Assembly: GCF_025336525.1 (NCBI RefSeq)
Contig: NZ_JAOCZP010000004.1
Location: forward strand, 124,001-188,000
DNA: 64,000 bases
From: Chelativorans salis
Lineage (GTDB): Bacteria; Pseudomonadota; Alphaproteobacteria; Rhizobiales; Rhizobiaceae
Reading direction: 5' to 3'
The notes beneath the pieces are model-generated. The model was not told the DNA's origin. It worked only from the letters and a program-made list of their open reading frames with translations, and searched no databases. The position numbers and the translations under genes were made by a program. The first letter of the stretch is position 1. The number at the start of each line of letters is the position of its first letter. Below are positions 33,703-46,005 of this stretch, piece after piece.

Positions 33703-34542
33703 TCACCACGGCTTTCCACGCAACGCCAGGATGGCGGCGGCGGTTTCCTCTATCGAGCGGCGCGTGACGTCGATCAGCGGCCAGTTGTGCCGGCTGCAGA
33801 GCCGTCGCGCATAGGCGAGCTCGCGGGCGATGGTGGAGCGGTCCGCATAGGTGTCGAAATCACCGGCCGCGGCAGCACTCGACAAGAGGCGGTTCTGCCG
33901 TACCTGGGCGATACGCTCGGCGGAAGCCACGAGGCCGACGATGAGCGGACGCTTGGCCCGCGCCAGGCTCTCCGGCAAAGGCACGTCGAGGACGATCGGG
34001 ACGTTCGCGGTCTTGATGCCGCGGTTTGCCAGATAGATGCTGGTTGGCGTTTTCGAGGTGCGCGAGACGCCGACCAGCACGATATCCGCTTCATCTACGT
34101 CGTGCGGAAGCTGCCCGTCATCATGCTCCATCGTAAAGTTCAGCGCGTCGATGCGGCGGAAATAGTCTGCATCCAGGACGTGCTGTGCACCCACCCGCCG
34201 GCCGGCCGGCGTGCCGAGATAGGACTGGAAGACCGTAAGCACCGGCTCCAGCACGGAGACGCTGGGTAGGCCCATGGCCGCGCAGCGCTCCTCGATCTGA
34301 CGCGCCACCTTCTGGTCGACGATGGTATAGAGGACGATGCCCGGCTCCTCATCGATCTCCGCGAACACCTTCTCGAGCTGTTTTTCGGTGCGGATCAAGG
34401 GATAGATGTGCTCGATGGCGCTCGCATCCTTGTACTGCGCGGCCGCGGCGCGGCCCGCCGCGAGCAGCGTCTCGCCTGTGGCGTCAGAGATCAGGTGCAG
34501 GTGAAAGAAGCTCTGGGTTTTTTGCACACGACGGTCCCGCAT
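33703..34542 (-). CDS. ppsR: Pyruvate, phosphate dikinase regulatory protein (kinase-pyrophosphorylase)
   Basis: The 279-residue DUF299-family protein has the start [20 protein letters not shown] and the P-loop-like [19 protein letters not shown] (about residues 152-170). Family members switch PEP synthase or pyruvate phosphate dikinase off and on by ADP-dependent phosphorylation and Pi-dependent removal. ATG at 34,542 is one possible start; GTG at 34,527 would give a more usual N-terminus (VQKTQSFFH). It marks the left border of the likely oriC. Confidence 0.93.
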
Positions 34543-34923
34543 CTGTGGAGATGTGTTGATAGCGCGGAAGATTTTCGAAGGCGAGGAGCGAGGGCGGTAA
34601 AAACCCGCCGATCATCCACAATTCGCATGGCTGCGGATTTCATTTTGCGCCTGTAGAAAACTGCGTGAAGAGAAAATACTGTCCACACGAGGGCGGTATC
34701 GGCCAGATTCCTCCCTCCGATGCATCCTTTTGATTCCATTACTAAAATTAAAAATCCTCCTGAAGATATCCCCATGGTATCATCCTCCGGCGCGGCAAAA
34801 TGCGCACCCTTTCGGGCGCTGGAAACGTGGACAGGTTTTAATCCACACTCCAAACAGACTCATAGAATTAGAAGAATCTAAATCTTGGATTCTTTATTTT
34901 TTGAATCTTTGGAGGCCTCTCAC
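34543..34923. other. oriC: Probable chromosomal replication origin (oriC)
   Basis: This 381-base gap between ppsR and hemE is AT-rich, especially 34,741-34,760 and 34,858-34,910. It contains five GANTC sites (34,706; 34,732; 34,874; 34,888; 34,903). DnaA-box-like sequences are TCATCCACA (34,612-34,620) and TAATCCACA (34,839-34,847), each one mismatch from TTATCCACA, and weaker ones at 34,544-34,552 (reverse) and 34,679-34,687. In Caulobacter and Rickettsiales the origin lies at the hemE border, and nearby genes here point away on both sides. The 3' part also carries the hemE promoter and ribosome-binding site (GGAGG, 34,911-34,915). Confidence 0.8.
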
Positions 34924-35952
34924 GTGACGGAGCGGAAATTCCTTGAAGCGCTGAGCGGGCAAACCGCCTTCCCGCCCCCAATCTGGATGATGCGCCAGGC
35001 CGGGCGCTATCTGCCGGAGTACCGGGATATCCGGAAGAAGGCCGGAAGCTTCCTCGACCTTTGCTACAATCCCGATTTCGCCGTTGAGGTGACGTTGCAG
35101 CCCATCCGGCGTTTCGGCTTCGATGCGGCGATCCTCTTTTCCGACATACTCGTCGTGCCGCATGCGCTCGGCCGCGATCTGCGCTTCGAAGAGGGCGTAG
35201 GCCCTTTGATGACGCCGCTTGGCAAGGAAGATATCAGTGCCTTGGAAATAACCGGCGTTCACGAAAGGCTGGCGCCGGTCTACGAGACGGTGAGGCGGCT
35301 GCGCAGAGAATTGCCCCGCGAGACGGCGCTTATCGGCTTTTGCGGTGCGCCGTGGACCGTCGCAACCTATATGATCGCCGGGCGCGGCACGCCGGACCAG
35401 GCGCCGGCGCGGCTGTTCGGGCATTCTTCGCCGGAAGCTTTCGCTCACCTTCTCGACCGGCTTGCTGCCTGCTCGGCCGAGTATCTCATCCGCCAGATCG
35501 ATGCTGGCGCCGACGCGGTGCAGATATTCGATTCCTGGGCCGGCGTCCTGGACGAGGCAAGTTTTCATGCGTGGTGCGAGCGACCGGTGGCGGAAATCGT
35601 GCGCCGGGTGCGTGAACGGCGTCCGACGGTGCCGATCATCGGCTTTCCCAAGGGCGCCGGCATGCTTTATGCGGGGTACCGCCAAACCACCGGCGTGACG
35701 GCGCTCGGGCTCGATTGGACCCTGCCGCTGGCGGAAGCGCGGCGTCTGCAGGCGGAAGGCCCGATTCAGGGTAATCTCGATCCGATGCGCCTTCTTGCTG
35801 GCGGACGGGCGCTCGAGGAAGGTGTCGACGCGATTCTTGCCACGCTCGGGGGCGGGCCGCTGATCTTCAATCTCGGGCATGGTGTGACGCCGGAGACGCC
35901 TGTGGAGCACGTAGAAGCCATGGTAAGGCGGGTGCGGGAGGCCGTGCGATGA
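34924..35952 (+). CDS. hemE: Uroporphyrinogen decarboxylase
   Basis: HemE removes four carboxyl groups from uroporphyrinogen III to give coproporphyrinogen III. The 342-residue protein has the substrate loop [28 protein letters not shown] with the catalytic aspartate, and [14 protein letters not shown] at 34,924 is chosen because GGAGG lies eight bases upstream and the protein starts [10 protein letters not shown]; the frame is open farther up into the origin region. Its stop overlaps hemJ. Confidence 0.96.
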
Positions 35953-37986: not shown

Positions 37987-40008
<2,022 letters not shown>

Positions 40009-40054
40009 GATCTCGTCTCCATGTTCGGACTGAAAGAAAGGTAGAGCGCCGGCC

Positions 40055-41386
40055 ATGGCGGATCAAACGCTAGTTCGTGACACCATCTTCGCCCTGTCGA
40101 GCGGTGCCTTGCCCTCCGGCGTCGCCATCGTGCGCCTTTCGGGGCCGGCAACGGGCGCCGTGATCGAAGCGATGACCGGAAGACTCCCCGCACCACGCAA
40201 TGCCAGGCTGGCGGCGATCCGGGACCGCCAAGGCACCCTTCTGGACCGTGGGCTGTGTCTTTTCTTTCCCGGTCCGGAGAGCTTTACGGGTGAGGATTGC
40301 GGTGAACTGCACCTGCATGGTGGACGCGCGGTGGTGAGTGCGGTGTTGGAGGCGCTGGCGTCCATTCCCACTTTGCGCGGGGCGGAGGCCGGTGAGTTTA
40401 CCAAGCGGGCCTTTCTCAACGGCAAGATCGACCTCACCGGCGCCGAGGCCCTGTCCGACCTGATCACCGCAGAGACCGAAGCGCAGCGGCGCTTCGCACT
40501 TGCCAACAGCGACGAGCGGCATCGCCGGCTTTACGAGAAGTGGCGGCGGCAACTCATCCACGCTCGGGCGATGATCGAGGCGGCGCTGGATTTCGCCGAT
40601 GAATCGGATGTGCCTGGTTCGGTGGCGGATACGACCTGGAGAGAGATTGCCGCGCTACGCAGCGCGATCGCCACCCATGCCGCCGCGTATCGCGATGCCG
40701 AGATTATCCGCGACGGCCTCCGGGTGGTGATACTGGGTGCGCCCAATGCCGGCAAATCGAGCCTGCTCAATGTGCTTGCGCGCCGCGACGTCGCCATCGT
40801 GACGGAGGAACCGGGCACGACACGCGACGTGCTCGAGGTGAATATGGATATCGGGGGGATGAAGGTGGTGCTCACGGACACCGCCGGCATTCGCGAGGCC
40901 GAAGGGCGTGTCGAAGCAATCGGCATCGAACGATCTCTACAACGGGCGCGCGAGGCCGACTTGGTGATCCTCCTGGAAGATGCTGCCGCGCCCGTGCCGT
41001 TCGAAGGCGTCTCGGACAAACGGCTGATTCGGGTCGGCAGCAAAAGCGACCTCGTTGAAGGCGAGATGCCGGAGGGGCGGTACGCGTGTCTTCTTTCTAC
41101 GAAGATCGGCGAGGGAATCGATCACCTGCTGCAGCTTTTGCGCGACGCCTGTGCGGGCTATGGCGCGCGCGCCGGCGATCTTCTGCCGTTCCGCTCCCGA
41201 CATGTAGCGTTGCTGCGGGAGGCGGTGGAGGCTTTGGATGCCGCGCTCGGGGGTGAGGATGATGCGCTGGAGTTGAGAGCGGAATGCCTTCGCCTCGCTT
41301 CCACTGCGCTGGGCCGCATATGCGGGGAGATTGATGTTGAGGATTTGCTCGACACGATCTTCTCGACCTTCTGCATTGGGAAATGA
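40055..41386 (+). CDS. mnmE: tRNA uridine-5-carboxymethylaminomethyl modification GTPase MnmE
   Basis: MnmE, with MnmG, adds the cmnm5 group to the wobble uridine of some tRNAs. The 443-residue protein has the tetrahydrofolate-binding N-terminal domain, the G domain inserted at about 215-365 (P-loop GAPNAGKSSLLN, G3 DTAG) and the C-terminal CIGK, which holds the essential cysteine. The stop codon TGA is also the first three bases of a parS site at 41,384. mnmG follows after 385 bases that hold two more parS sites. Confidence 0.96.
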   Translation: MADQTLVRDTIFALSSGALPSGVAIVRLSGPATGAVIEAMTGRLPAPRNARLAAIRDRQGTLLDRGLCLFFPGPESFTGEDCGELHLHGGRAVVSAVLEALASIPTLRGAEAGEFTKRAFLNGKIDLTGAEALSDLITAETEAQRRFALANSDERHRRLYEKWRRQLIHARAMIEAALDFADESDVPGSVADTTWREIAALRSAIATHAAAYRDAEIIRDGLRVVILGAPNAGKSSLLNVLARRDVAIVTEEPGTTRDVLEVNMDIGGMKVVLTDTAGIREAEGRVEAIGIERSLQRAREADLVILLEDAAAPVPFEGVSDKRLIRVGSKSDLVEGEMPEGRYACLLSTKIGEGIDHLLQLLRDACAGYGARAGDLLPFRSRHVALLREAVEALDAALGGEDDALELRAECLRLASTALGRICGEIDVEDLLDTIFSTFCIGK

Positions 41387-41399
41387 TTCACGTGAAACA
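41384..41399. promoter_or_regulatory. parS: parS site 1 (ParB binding site)
   Basis: TGATTCACGTGAAACA differs at one half-site from the perfect palindrome TGTTTCACGTGAAACA. It overlaps the mnmE stop codon and contains GATTC, a GANTC methylation site. Confidence 0.88.
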
Positions 41400-41422
41400 T
41401 GAGGACGCCGGAAGGGGCGGCA

Positions 41423-41438
41423 TGATTCACGTGAAACA
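41423..41438. promoter_or_regulatory. parS: parS site 2
   Basis: An exact copy of site 1, TGATTCACGTGAAACA, starts 39 bases after it; 17 bases including the preceding A are identical. It also contains a GANTC site. Confidence 0.9.
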
Positions 41439-41606
41439 CCCGTGGAGCGGAGTGTTAGCAACGGTGTCCGGGGCAAGCGGGCGCGCTGGCGATGATGGTC
41501 AGTCACGGTTGGATATGTGGTATGCTCGGAACAAGTTGGAGGACGATGAAGCGGAGATCTATGCAGCTTCTTTTATACCTTCGATTGGCTAACCACCCCT
41601 GCCCTC

Positions 41607-41638
41607 GTCATTCTAGAGCTTGTCCCAGGATTCATGCC
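41607..41638. repeat. Decayed REP-like element
   Basis: TCATTCTAGAGCTTGTCCCAGGATTCATGCC-like sequence (quoted in parts: AGAGCTTGTCCCAGGATTCA) aligns with the reverse copy of the palindrome at 17,892-18,016 with several changes. The hairpin is largely lost. Confidence 0.5.
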
Positions 41639-41686
41639 TAGACGACGGTCCATCGAGTAGAGGGAATGTTGGAGATGGAGCCATAC

Positions 41687-41702
41687 CGTTTCACGTGAAA
41701 CA
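41687..41702. promoter_or_regulatory. parS: parS site 3
   Basis: CGTTTCACGTGAAACA has the full 14-base palindrome core GTTTCACGTGAAAC. It lies 70 bases before the mnmG start codon. Confidence 0.92.
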
Positions 41703-41771
41703 TTTGCTTCCCTCACGGGCTTGACTGTCGATTCCGTTGTGCGCATCTGGTGCACTCGAGAAGGAGCAATT

Positions 41772-43637
41772 ATGGGCGAGATTTTCGATGTCGTGGTGAT
41801 CGGTGGCGGCCACGCTGGGTGCGAGGCGGCCGCGGCGGCTGCGCGCATGGGTGCAAAGACGGCGCTCGTCACGCTGCGGCGGGACACGATCGGCGTGATG
41901 TCCTGCAACCCCGCCATCGGCGGGATCGGCAAGGGACAGCTCGTGCGCGAGGTGGATGCGCTGGACGGGCTGATGGGCCGCTTGGCGGACGCGGCAGGCA
42001 TCCAGTTTCGCCTCCTGAACAGGCGCAAGGGACCGGCGGTGCGTGGCCCGCGCACTCAGGCGGACCGGCGGCTCTATCGCGAAGCCATGCAGGCGGCAAT
42101 CGCCCGCCAGGAGAACCTCCAGGTGGTGGAGGCGGAGGCGCATGCGCTAGGCATCGAGAATGGCCGGATCAGCCATGTGATCGTTTCCGATGAGCGCCGG
42201 ATCGATTGCGGAGCGGTGGTTCTGACCACCGGTACGTTCCTGCGCGGGCTCATTCACATCGGCGAGAAGACGATCCCCGCAGGGCGGGTGAATGAGCCGG
42301 CGGCGAAGCGGCTTTCGGCTTCCATGGAGCAGGCCGGGTTCGCACTGGGGCGGCTGAAGACGGGAACGCCGCCGCGTCTCGACGGACGCACTATCGACTG
42401 GAGTGGACTTGGCTGGCAGGAGGCGGACGAGGCACCGATACCCTTCTCCTTGCTCACCGACTGGATCGTCAACCCGCAGATCGCCTGCGGCATCACCCGC
42501 ACTACGGCGGAGACGCATGCGATTATTCAGGAGAGCATCACGCGCTCGGCCATGTATTCCGGCGCGATCGGTGGCGTCGGGCCGCGCTATTGCCCGTCAA
42601 TCGAGGATAAGATAGTTAAGTTTGGCGAACGCGACGGCCATCAGATATTCCTGGAGCCCGAGGGGCTGGACGACGACACGGTCTATCCAAACGGCATCTC
42701 CACCTCGCTTCCTGAAGAGGTGCAGCACGCCTTCCTGAAGACCATCCCCGGACTTGCCGGGGCGCGCATGCTGCAGCCGGGTTACGCCATCGAATATGAC
42801 CATGTCGACCCACGCGAGCTGGAGCCTTCGCTGGAGACCCGGCGCGTCGGCGGACTTTTTCTGGCCGGGCAGATCAACGGGACGACCGGCTACGAAGAGG
42901 CCGCCGCGCAGGGCGTCCTCGCCGGACTCAATGCGGCGCGGGTGGCTTCGGGGGCTGCATCCGTCGTCTTCAGCCGGGCGGACGCTTATATTGGCGTGAT
43001 GGTGGACGACCTTGTGACACGGGGGGTGAGTGAGCCCTACCGCATGTTTACCTCGCGTGCCGAGTTCCGCCTGTCACTGCGCGCGGACAATGCGGACACA
43101 CGGCTGACGCCCCTGGCGATGGAATGGGGTATTGCCTCGGCGGAGCGTCGGGCGCGGTTCCAGCAGGCGGAGAAGGCGTTGGCTGAGGCGCGCGACGCTG
43201 CCCGGAGCCATGACCTGACGCCGAATGAGGCGATGCGTCACGGCATTTCACTCAACCATGACGGGATTCGTCGCAGCGCCTACGACCTTTTGTCCTACCC
43301 CGATGTGACGCTTGCGCAATTGGTGCGGATTTGGCCGGAACTGGGTGATATACCACCGAAGACGGCCGAGCGGCTGGAGACCGAGGCGCGCTATGCAGTC
43401 TATCTGGAGCGGCAGGCGGCGGATGCGAATCGGCTCCGGCAGGACGAGAGTAGGGCCATCCCCGCGGATGCGAATTTCGATTCGGTGTCGGGTCTTTCCA
43501 ATGAGCTGAAGGACAAGCTGCGGCTGCTAAGACCGCGCACGCTGGCCGAGGCGCAGCGGATCGACGGGATGACGCCGGCTGCGCTTGCGCTGATCCTGAT
43601 GGCCCTGCGCCAAGATGAAACGCGGGGTGCCGCGTGA
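41772..43637 (+). CDS. mnmG: tRNA uridine-5-carboxymethylaminomethyl modification enzyme MnmG
   Basis: MnmG is the FAD-dependent partner of MnmE. The 621-residue protein starts with the dinucleotide fold [20 protein letters not shown] and has the family signatures [20 protein letters not shown] and [15 protein letters not shown]; the C-terminal helical domain binds tRNA. AAGGAG five bases upstream fixes the start. Its last four bases overlap the rsmG start codon. Confidence 0.97.
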
Positions 43638-44272
43638 CGGAAGGACGTTTTGCGGCGCTGCAGGAGGTCGCCGGCCCCGTTTCACGTGAAACATTTGTCC
43701 GTTTGGAGGCTTTTGAGGCCGCGTTCCGGCGCTGGTCTGCACGCATCAACCTTGCCGCCCCTTCCACGCTTCCGCATCTGTGGGAACGGCATATTCTCGA
43801 CAGCGCCCAGCTCGTTTGCATAGCTCCAGAGGTGAGGCGATGGCTGGACCTCGGTTCCGGCGGTGGCTTTCCCGGCGCAGTGGTCGCCATTCTGCTCACC
43901 GATCGGGCCGAAGCGCACATTGATCTGCTGGAAAGCAACCGCAAGAAGGCGGCGTTTCTGCAGACGACGCTGGCGGGTCTCGGCGCCCCAGCCACAGTTC
44001 ATGCGCGGCGGATCGAGGACTGCTATGCGACGGTTCCAACACCGGAAATCGTCACCGCGCGCGCATTGGCGCCATTGGGGCGTCTGCTGGAGCTTGCCGA
44101 ACCCTGGCTCATCCAAGGCGCAAGGGCCCTCTTTCATAAAGGTCGGGATTACCGGCGTGAAGTGGAAGAAAGCGGTGACGCCTGGCAGTTCGATCTGGTA
44201 GAACACAGCGAGTCGACCGGTGACGGCGTGATTCTGGAGATCAACGATCTCCGCCGCTTCTCGCGCCGGTGA
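43634..44272 (+). CDS. rsmG: 16S rRNA (guanine527-N7)-methyltransferase RsmG
   Basis: RsmG methylates G527 of 16S rRNA; its loss gives low-level streptomycin resistance. The 212-residue protein has [10 protein letters not shown], the SAM loop [19 protein letters not shown], and [20 protein letters not shown]. It starts with GTG overlapping the mnmG stop. The codons for PVSRETF at residues 15-21 are formed by a parS site, so this stretch serves two purposes. Confidence 0.96.
43678..43693. promoter_or_regulatory. parS: parS site 4, inside rsmG
   Basis: CGTTTCACGTGAAACA is identical to site 3 and lies within the rsmG reading frame, where it codes for Val-Ser-Arg-Glu-Thr. It is about 0.6 kb upstream of parA. 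Confidence 0.92.
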
Positions 44273-44306: not shown

Positions 44307-45101
44307 ATGAGCACGCCATCGCGCATCATTACAGTGGCAAATCAGAAAGGCGGAGTCGGCAAGACGACCACGGCCATCAACCTAGCCACCGCTCTTGCGG
44401 CCATCGGCGAACGGGTGTTGATCGTCGATATCGACCCACAGGGTAACGCCAGCACCGGTCTCGGCATCGACCGGCAGGCACGCATGGTCTCGTCTTACGA
44501 CGTTCTGACCGGCGCTGCTGATGTCCGGGGGGCTGCGATGGAAACGGCGGTGCCGGGTCTGGCCGTCATTCCCTCGACGCTTGACTTGCTCGGCATAGAA
44601 ATGGAGATCGCGGATGCGCCGGACCGGGTCCTGAAGCTGCGCCGGGCGCTGCGGGAGGCGCCGAACGGCGTGCCCTACTCCTACGTGCTGATCGATTGCC
44701 CTCCCTCGCTCAATCTCCTGACGTTGAACGCCATGGCGGCGGCCGATTCGGTGCTCGTGCCGCTGCAGTGCGAGTTTTTTGCGCTCGAGGGGCTGAGCCA
44801 GCTTCTCGAAACAGTGGAGCAGATCCGCAGCACCATTAACCAACGCCTAACCATACAGGGCATCGTGCTGACCATGTTCGACCGGCGTAACAATCTGGCC
44901 AACCAGGTGGTCGAGGACGTGCGCGCCCATATGGGCGACACAGTCTACGACACGGTGATCCCGCGCAATGTGCGCGTCTCGGAAGCGCCTTCCTATGGCA
45001 AACCGGCGATCCTCTATGACCTGAAATGCTCCGGCAGCCAGGCCTATCTACAGCTGGCCTCCGAGGTGATCCGGCGCGAGCGGCGCCTGCGGGCGGCATG
45101 A
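44307..45101 (+). CDS. parA: Chromosome partitioning ATPase ParA
   Basis: ParA is a DNA-binding ATPase that pulls ParB-parS complexes to the cell poles. The 264-residue protein has the deviant Walker A ANQKGGVGKTTTAINLATAL (about residues 12-31), VDIDPQGNASTGLG, and VLIDCPPSLNLLTLNA. It has the short chromosomal form without a plasmid-type N-terminal HTH. It lies 34 bases after rsmG and 34 before parB. Confidence 0.97.
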   Translation: MSTPSRIITVANQKGGVGKTTTAINLATALAAIGERVLIVDIDPQGNASTGLGIDRQARMVSSYDVLTGAADVRGAAMETAVPGLAVIPSTLDLLGIEMEIADAPDRVLKLRRALREAPNGVPYSYVLIDCPPSLNLLTLNAMAAADSVLVPLQCEFFALEGLSQLLETVEQIRSTINQRLTIQGIVLTMFDRRNNLANQVVEDVRAHMGDTVYDTVIPRNVRVSEAPSYGKPAILYDLKCSGSQAYLQLASEVIRRERRLRAA

Positions 45102-45135: not shown

Positions 45136-46005
45136 ATGAACGAAGATGCCTCGCGTAAACGTCTCGGCCGCGGCCTGGCCGCTCTGATCGGCGAAATGGA
45201 TAATCCTTCGGCGAGCGAGCAGGAGGTGGTGCGCGCCGACCGGGTGGTGCCGATAGAGTTCATTTCGCCTAACCCGCGCAACCCACGGCGTAGCTTTGCG
45301 GAGGACGAACTCGGCGATCTTGCCCAATCGATCCGCGAGCACGGTATCGTGCAGCCGGTGGTGGTGCGGCCAGCGGCAGCGGACGGTCGCTTCGAGATCA
45401 TCGCCGGCGAGCGCCGCTGGCGTGCCGCTCAGCGGGCCGGCCTGACGGAGATTCCCGTCATCGTCCGCGATGTCGACGACAAGGCGGCGCTTGAGCTTGC
45501 AATCATTGAGAACGTGCAGCGCTCGGATCTCAATCCGATCGAGGAGGCGCGCGGCTATCAGCAGCTTATGGACGAGCATAGCTACACCCAGGCCGATCTC
45601 GGTCAGGTCATTGGCAAGAGCCGCAGCCACGTGGCGAACACGCTGCGGCTGCTCAAGCTGCCGTCCGCCGTGAGCGATCTTATTGTCGACGGTTCGCTGA
45701 CAGCCGGTCACGCGCGTACGCTGGTCAATGCCACTGATGCGGCAAGCCTTGCCAAGCGTATCGTCGAGCAGGGGCTCTCCGTGCGCCAGGCGGAGGCGCT
45801 CGCTGCCGCACCGGATGCGGAGCCAACACCGGGTAGCGCGGCGCGCAAGGAGAAGGATGCCGACACGCTGTCGCTGGAAAAGCTCCTGGGCGACCATATC
45901 GGCATGAAGGTGACGATCAGTCATAAGGAAAAGGGCGGTGAGTTGCGCATCGCTTACCGCACGCTTGAGCAGCTCGACGAGCTCTGTCGGCTACTGCAGC
46001 GGTAG
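45136..46005 (+). CDS. parB: Chromosome partitioning protein ParB
   Basis: ParB binds parS, spreads along DNA using CTP and recruits ParA and SMC. The 289-residue protein starts with RLGRGLAALIGEMD, a ParA-contacting segment, then the CTP-binding GERRWRAAQRAG (about residues 94-105), the HTH YTQADLGQVIGKSRSHVANT and a C-terminal dimerisation domain ending RTLEQLDELCRLLQR. Four sites it should bind lie within 5 kb upstream. Confidence 0.97.
   Translation: MNEDASRKRLGRGLAALIGEMDNPSASEQEVVRADRVVPIEFISPNPRNPRRSFAEDELGDLAQSIREHGIVQPVVVRPAAADGRFEIIAGERRWRAAQRAGLTEIPVIVRDVDDKAALELAIIENVQRSDLNPIEEARGYQQLMDEHSYTQADLGQVIGKSRSHVANTLRLLKLPSAVSDLIVDGSLTAGHARTLVNATDAASLAKRIVEQGLSVRQAEALAAAPDAEPTPGSAARKEKDADTLSLEKLLGDHIGMKVTISHKEKGGELRIAYRTLEQLDELCRLLQR

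Follow-up and report, generated by a model that had tools for sequence, protein, structure and literature searches.

A very probable hemE-type chromosomal replication origin in the ppsR-hemE gap of Chelativorans salis

We analyzed a 64-kb stretch of DNA (64,000 nucleotides, hereafter the window; positions 124001-188000 of contig NZ_JAOCZP010000004.1 of RefSeq assembly GCF_025336525.1) from Chelativorans salis, which belongs to a genus of Hyphomicrobiales. The genome is a 5.66-Mb draft of 19 contigs, and the contig scans reported below covered the first 448 of 552 kb of the contig. The analysis centred on the gap between two divergent genes, which an earlier note on this DNA had proposed to be the chromosome origin:

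33703..34542, minus strand: ppsR (COG1806/DUF299, PF03618; Pfam PF03618 E = 4.5e-91), left neighbour of the proposed oriC
34543..34923, no strand: proposed oriC, the 381-bp ppsR-hemE gap, flanking genes divergent
34860..34911, no strand: AT-rich probable DNA-unwinding element (50-mer, G+C 0.22)
34910..34914, plus strand: GGAGG, probable hemE ribosome-binding site, called from the sequence
34924..35952, plus strand: hemE, uroporphyrinogen decarboxylase (PF01208 E = 4.2e-113), GTG start

The start codon of ppsR is unsettled, as many relatives align from residue 6. The top named match of HemE is 78% identical and comes from a Chelativorans species, with congeners reaching up to 93%. To the right of hemE follow, in order, a hemJ-like gene (UPF0093), rho, trmE, gidA, parA and parB; a 689-aa minus-strand frame lies between rho and trmE (window 37987-40056). 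An Rfam search of the 64-kb window gave no match, and a tRNA scan of the window found none.

The gap has a G+C content of 0.47 versus 0.61 for the surrounding 4-kb locus, and its 50-mer at 34860 (G+C 0.22) is the joint lowest in 448 kb of the contig. Thus, the AT-rich gap and the unwinding stretch that the earlier note had put at 34,858-34,910 were both recovered, the G+C minimum lying at 34860-34911. The same note had also placed the hemE promoter and ribosome-binding site inside the origin; a promoter there is plausible, but a scan of 34400-35000 for sigma-70-type promoters returned no site.

To place the gap among its relatives, we compared 110 hemE loci, namely the best 80 of 589 (the named records) and 30 more, with our own genome included. 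A divergent ppsR-hemE gap, that is, the hemE/COG1806 neighbourhood, was present in 94 of these 110 loci (best 80 of 589 plus 30), and the Ensifer, Rhizobium and Mesorhizobium loci had the same gap; the 16 loci without it include two that were both cut by contig ends (L109 and L110). Apart from two identical pairs (L002/L090 and L003/L093), the gaps were distinct (92 of 94), and in this set (best 80 of 589 plus 30) the distinct gaps had a median length of 391 bp, 87 of them falling within 365-445 bp. One locus titled Bacillus subtilis SK6B4 (L053) has an alphaproteobacterial ppsR-hemE origin region, and its record is probably mislabelled or contaminated. Chromosomal origins of rhizobia, such as that of Sinorhizobium meliloti, lie near hemE, in the same gene neighbourhood as here. 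For column counts we aligned 90 gaps of 360-445 bp, our own included and the longer gaps of L030, L042, L056 and L104 omitted, which gave 88 distinct rows.

This place is the published one for the Caulobacter origin, as the earlier note had stated: Cori, of 404 bp, lies between hemE and COG1806, and four Rickettsia origins occupy the same gap with lengths of 383-396 bp (PMC1914354). In Ori-Finder, hemE serves as an indicator gene (PMC2275245).

Within the gap, we located the following DnaA-related elements:

34554..34562, minus strand: degenerate DnaA-box position TGTTGATAG, commonest aligned form TGTGGATAA
34612..34620, plus strand: DnaA box TCATCCACA, one mismatch to TTATCCACA
34839..34847, plus strand: DnaA box TAATCCACA, anchor of the unwinding module, one mismatch to TTATCCACA
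34863..34877, plus strand: DnaA-trios TAG AAT TAG AAG AAT, the first four conserved

The two 9-mers one mismatch from TTATCCACA that had been noticed before are indeed present (TCATCCACA at 34612 and TAATCCACA at 34839), together with other, weaker sites. The gap thus shares several boxes and a raised A+T with alphaproteobacterial origins of the hemE type. One-mismatch boxes show no excess in the whole window (three found, 4.0 expected). Two of them per 381-bp gap appeared in 4 of 1000 shuffles of the gap, and two TNATCCACA in none of 1000. A second place with two one-mismatch boxes within 381 bp occurs on the 448 kb, at window coordinate 212195, and two ATCCACA cores occur at two further places besides the gap. 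Thus, since other places reach two boxes or cores, the boxes alone are not unique to the gap. They are nevertheless widely kept among the relatives (best 80 of 589 plus 30): at least two boxes with at most one mismatch were found in 85 of the 92 distinct gaps, and the box position at 34612 had 0-1 mismatch in 72 of 88 distinct rows. In the same set (best 80 of 589 plus 30), the 34554 position was exact in 21 of 88 distinct rows, with one mismatch in 21 and two in 24.

The second box opens a block (34839-34877) composed of the DnaA box, a 15-nt spacer and the DnaA-trios. According to PMC8287927, an unwinding module (BUS) consists of a DnaA box, a spacer of up to 16 nt and at least three trios of the form.A.; the block has one mismatch in its box, a spacer of 15 nt and five trios. 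In the aligned relatives (best 80 of 589 plus 30), each of trios one to four had its middle A in 87 of 88 distinct rows, and 86 rows had it in all four, whereas the fifth trio was not conserved, with its middle A in 29 of 88. Among the eight first and third positions of the four trios, three were nearly fixed (82-86 of 88 rows), and the remaining five were variable, the commonest base occurring in 46-66 of 88 (again the best 80 of 589 plus 30). As judged from these aligned sequences, the middle A is conserved in the phase expected of DnaA-trios under the published rule (PMC8287927).

On the 448 kb, both strands considered, the block is the only place that combines a box with at most one mismatch, a spacer of at most 16 nt and at least five trios. 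Four trios under the same box rule occur at one other place, and four places on the contig pass when boxes with two mismatches and five trios are allowed. When 151 family genomes were searched for the block with at most two mismatches, 51 (own genome included) were matched, each with a single copy, and it was not found within two mismatches in the other 100; a reversed control matched 1 genome. An automatic BUS finder applied to 54 further loci was discarded, as it returned chance-like hits (codon-like CAC/AAC runs, with those at L273 and L277 near GANTC), and its hit at L230 lies at another site.

The gap also carries a cluster of GANTC sites:

34706..34710, no strand: GANTC site
34732..34736, no strand: GANTC site
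34857..34861, no strand: GANTC site (GACTC), in the linker between DnaA box and trios
34874..34878, no strand: GANTC site
34888..34892, no strand: GANTC site
34903..34907, no strand: GANTC site

The earlier note had counted five sites within 202 bases; the cluster exists, but the number is six (34706-34907). GANTC is avoided in the window (107 observed versus 315 expected from shuffles), and across 448 kb of the contig it reaches its highest density per 202 bp in the six-site cluster, with a Poisson P of about 4.5e-6 for a single 202-bp window at the non-coding rate. However, six sites were reached by 28 of 1000 dinucleotide shuffles of the gap, so that the cluster is only moderately unusual given the gap's own AT-rich composition. 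Among the 92 distinct gaps (from the best 80 of 589 named records plus 30), 77 had at least four GANTC sites, and the mean was 4.87 per gap versus 1.11 expected at each locus's own rate.

Further features of the chromosomal context lie to the right of the gap:

41384..41399, no strand: parS-like site, one mismatch to the 16-mer that we take to be parS
41423..41438, no strand: parS-like site
41687..41702, no strand: parS-like site
43678..43693, no strand: parS-like site
44307..45101, plus strand: parA (PF13614 E = 6.1e-60)
45136..46005, plus strand: parB (ParB_N E = 1.2e-36, HTH_ParB E = 1.7e-33)

These four sites, 6.5-8.8 kb from the gap, are the genome's only full matches to the degenerate parS pattern (window 41385-43692), which with one mismatch occurs at five other places in the genome; the assumed 16-mer, with up to three mismatches, was found nowhere else on the 448 kb. 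In the class, parS and parAB usually lie near oriC, as they do here. One point against the proposed origin is that the dnaA gene is on another contig (C9:1226920). In contig C1 of the congener G004, seven places gave 260-aa matches of equal score to the DnaA-type AAA family, which we presume may be transposon helper ATPases of the IstB kind.

Taken together, the hemE/COG1806 place, the kept gap length, the block of box and trios, the AT-rich stretch and the parS cluster fit oriC and support the origin proposed in the earlier note. What the computation establishes is which sequence elements are present, how well they are conserved, how rare they are on the contig and in what genome context they lie; on this sequence evidence the gap at 34543-34923 is very probably the chromosomal oriC, of the hemE-COG1806 type of Caulobacter and Rickettsia.

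Could the gap serve solely as divergent promoter DNA for ppsR and hemE, with GANTC as promoter marks of CcrM/GcrA and the boxes regulating transcription? In orders that have CcrM, intergenic regions are on average enriched in GANTC (PMC3973325), the genome encodes GcrA and a protein with a RAMA domain as in CcrM, and the block ends 47 bp before hemE, all of which would suit such a role. Relatives that have parted with hemE at this site speak against it. In both Mesorhizobium ephedrae 6GN-30 (G298; L005/L284) and Pseudaminobacter soli HC19 (G299; L007/L285), the site reads ppsR-block-hemJ-rho with no hemE there; a hemE sits elsewhere without the block, and the block at the site has three mismatches to the pattern. 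In these two cases, where block and hemE part, it is the element that appears to keep the chromosomal place, not hemE. Since the block stays in the ppsR-hemJ gap without hemE, it is not simply a hemE promoter, although hemJ could use the block, which makes this argument strong rather than absolute. The longer gaps of L030, L042 and L056 have the block further from hemE; in G302 (L042), block and hemE occur together but spaced further apart. A promoter role also leaves the trio phasing and the parS cluster unexplained, and we consider it very unlikely to be the whole function of the gap. Two other genomes showed different arrangements: the Rhizobiales bacterium 65-79 MAG (G301; L018, L287) has one hemE at the site and a second (L018) elsewhere, and in the L013 genome no block was found within three mismatches.

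The origin could also lie nearby but outside the gap, for instance near window 2.7 kb, where GC skew turns. The earlier note had expected a cumulative GC-skew minimum close to the gap, and this failed on the own contig: the minimum lies 32 kb left of the gap, at about position 2686 of the window, and skew corrected for gene strand also turns near window 2.7 kb, not at the gap. Strand-corrected skew at fourfold sites is -0.03 left of the window, +0.10 at window 2.7-34.5 kb, +0.15 at 34.9-47.1 kb, about 0 at 47-64 kb and +0.08 beyond. However, GC skew is insufficient in several Alphaproteobacteria (PMC1914354), and in three congeners it was weak or inconsistent (positive on both sides of hemE in G001, without a turn in G011); in G004, sampled in 20-kb pieces, it fell on to about 3.16 Mb with no turn at hemE. 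Thus, the failed check weakens the skew test more than it weakens oriC in the gap. None of the top GANTC clusters, box pairs, G+C minima or five-trio modules from the contig scans fell near 2.7 kb. The longest block colinear with G004 and G011 is window 10.4-47.1 kb (10430-47149), which spans the gap; the rest of the fetched stretches is heavily shuffled, and order is not kept left of the block. Such shuffling may explain the unreliable skew, and a local rearrangement could have shifted its turn. An origin nearby but outside the gap seems very unlikely. G001 is colinear over window 26.1-66.0 kb, adjoined by a 7.7-kb inversion.

Polarity of GGGNAGGG, which we take to be KOPS, was counted in G004, where hemE lies at 2.088 Mb of a 4.22-Mb contig. 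There were 8 plus and 71 minus copies in 20 samples over 0-1.83 Mb, 22 plus and 29 minus in 20 stretches of 1.9-2.3 Mb, and 54 plus and 17 minus in 20 samples over 2.3-4.14 Mb, which locates the flip around hemE within about 0.4 Mb. At a finer scale, no turn of KOPS-like GGGNAGGG was found within about 0.2 Mb of the gap in the own contig, G001, G011 or G004.

With the gap read as oriC, its likenesses and differences to known systems can be stated. Neither the CtrA (TTAA-N7-TTA type) nor the IHF (WATCAANNNNTTR) consensus, both in the form that we assume, matched anywhere in the gap. In this it differs from Cori of Caulobacter crescentus, which has five CtrA sites (PMC1914354), but it resembles Cori in the hemE/COG1806 (ppsR) gap, AT-richness, weak DnaA boxes and GANTC (PMC1914354, PMC4468827, PMC3973325). 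The origin of Rickettsia prowazekii occupies the same gap, there of 384 bp (PMC1914354), whereas Rickettsiales are excepted from the GANTC methylation by CcrM (PMC11514494) and GANTC is clustered here. Similar to the BUS first found in Bacillus subtilis, the module has a box, a spacer of at most 16 nt and at least three trios with a middle A, and its box-proximal trio is TAG (3'-GAT-5') (PMC8287927). Unlike that BUS, its trio-adjacent stretch appears to be GANTC instead of a short GC-rich linker, and its trio-proximal second box seems to be degenerate. Overall, the proposed oriC is ordinary in kind and lies in the same place as in many relatives; the modest new detail is the linker GANTC.

This site starts 9 nt from the box at 34839 and was present in 81 of 88 distinct rows (83 of all 90; best 80 of 589 plus 30). 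Variation that keeps GANTC falls at N (69 GACTC, 11 GAGTC and 1 GATTC). Five of the seven rows without the site come from the order's other families (L101, L105, L106, L108 and L111); the other two are L065 and L096, the latter from the same genus. Judged by eye, L065 and L096 share the outgroup layout, in which a second box-like 9-mer and a short linker precede the trios. This column count is our main measure of conservation. Regular-expression motif tests were rough: L018 is miscounted by the loose motif, and true blocks, L058 among them, escape the strict one. The loose motif occurred near hemE in 75 of the 80 named records (the best 80 of 589) and 19 of 20 family loci. Of the loci from the order's other families, 6 of 36 had it (two of the 36 lacking usable upstream sequence), as did 1 of 28 from other orders. 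The corresponding counts for the strict motif were 63 of 80 (best 80 of 589), 17 of 20, 4 of 34 and 0 of 28, and the few outgroup matches include sequences other than the family block. A pattern of two boxes in tandem, a 3-nt linker and four or more trios matched upstream of hemE in 6 of 36 order outgroups, in 0 of 28 loci from other orders and in none of 100 family or named loci (named being the best 80 of 589). These patterns suggest that the AACAGACTC block took the place of the second box and short linker in the family. Because the whole block is conserved, the conservation of GANTC is inseparable from that of its neighbours on these data.

We infer DnaA binding, melting, the start of replication and any role of methylation from these elements. 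DnaA-ATP would bind the boxes at 34612 and 34839 and the weaker sites, and a DnaA filament from the 34839 box would cross the linker and engage the trios at 34863-34877. The AT-rich stretch at 34860-34911 would then open, with the helicase loaded there, and segregation of the copies would fall to ParB bound at the parS cluster, 6.5-8.8 kb away. Firing would leave the GANTC sites hemimethylated, which could feed the state of the cell cycle back to the origin and/or the hemE promoter. In Ensifer, GANTC passes from fully methylated to hemimethylated as replication proceeds (PMC8725594), and according to a modelling paper, Cori cannot re-initiate until it is fully methylated (PMC2217572). Gating of initiation by origin methylation has already been proposed for Caulobacter, and such a methylation check is an old, disputed idea. 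What would be new is a GANTC placed inside the unwinding module with a direct action there; in the open-access papers searched, we did not find DnaA-trios and GANTC together. That the linker was turned into a CcrM site whose methylation state acts directly on strand opening by DnaA is a speculative and rather unlikely proposal. The RAMA domain was found in 30 of 31 genomes, the sole exception (G014) belonging to the same genus, so that absence of CcrM cannot serve as a contrast.

Our results provide a base-level map of a very probable origin for a little-studied genus, where relying on the GC skew of the contig would put the origin about 32 kb off. Relatives without hemE at the site offer a setting in which origin function is separable from hemE expression. 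If the linker proposal is true, the origin would have a built-in once-per-cycle check at the melting site, for which a SeqA-like protein is unneeded. Finally, the conserved CcrM site in the module makes whether GANTC methylation acts on the origin itself a one-base-pair question in rhizobia.
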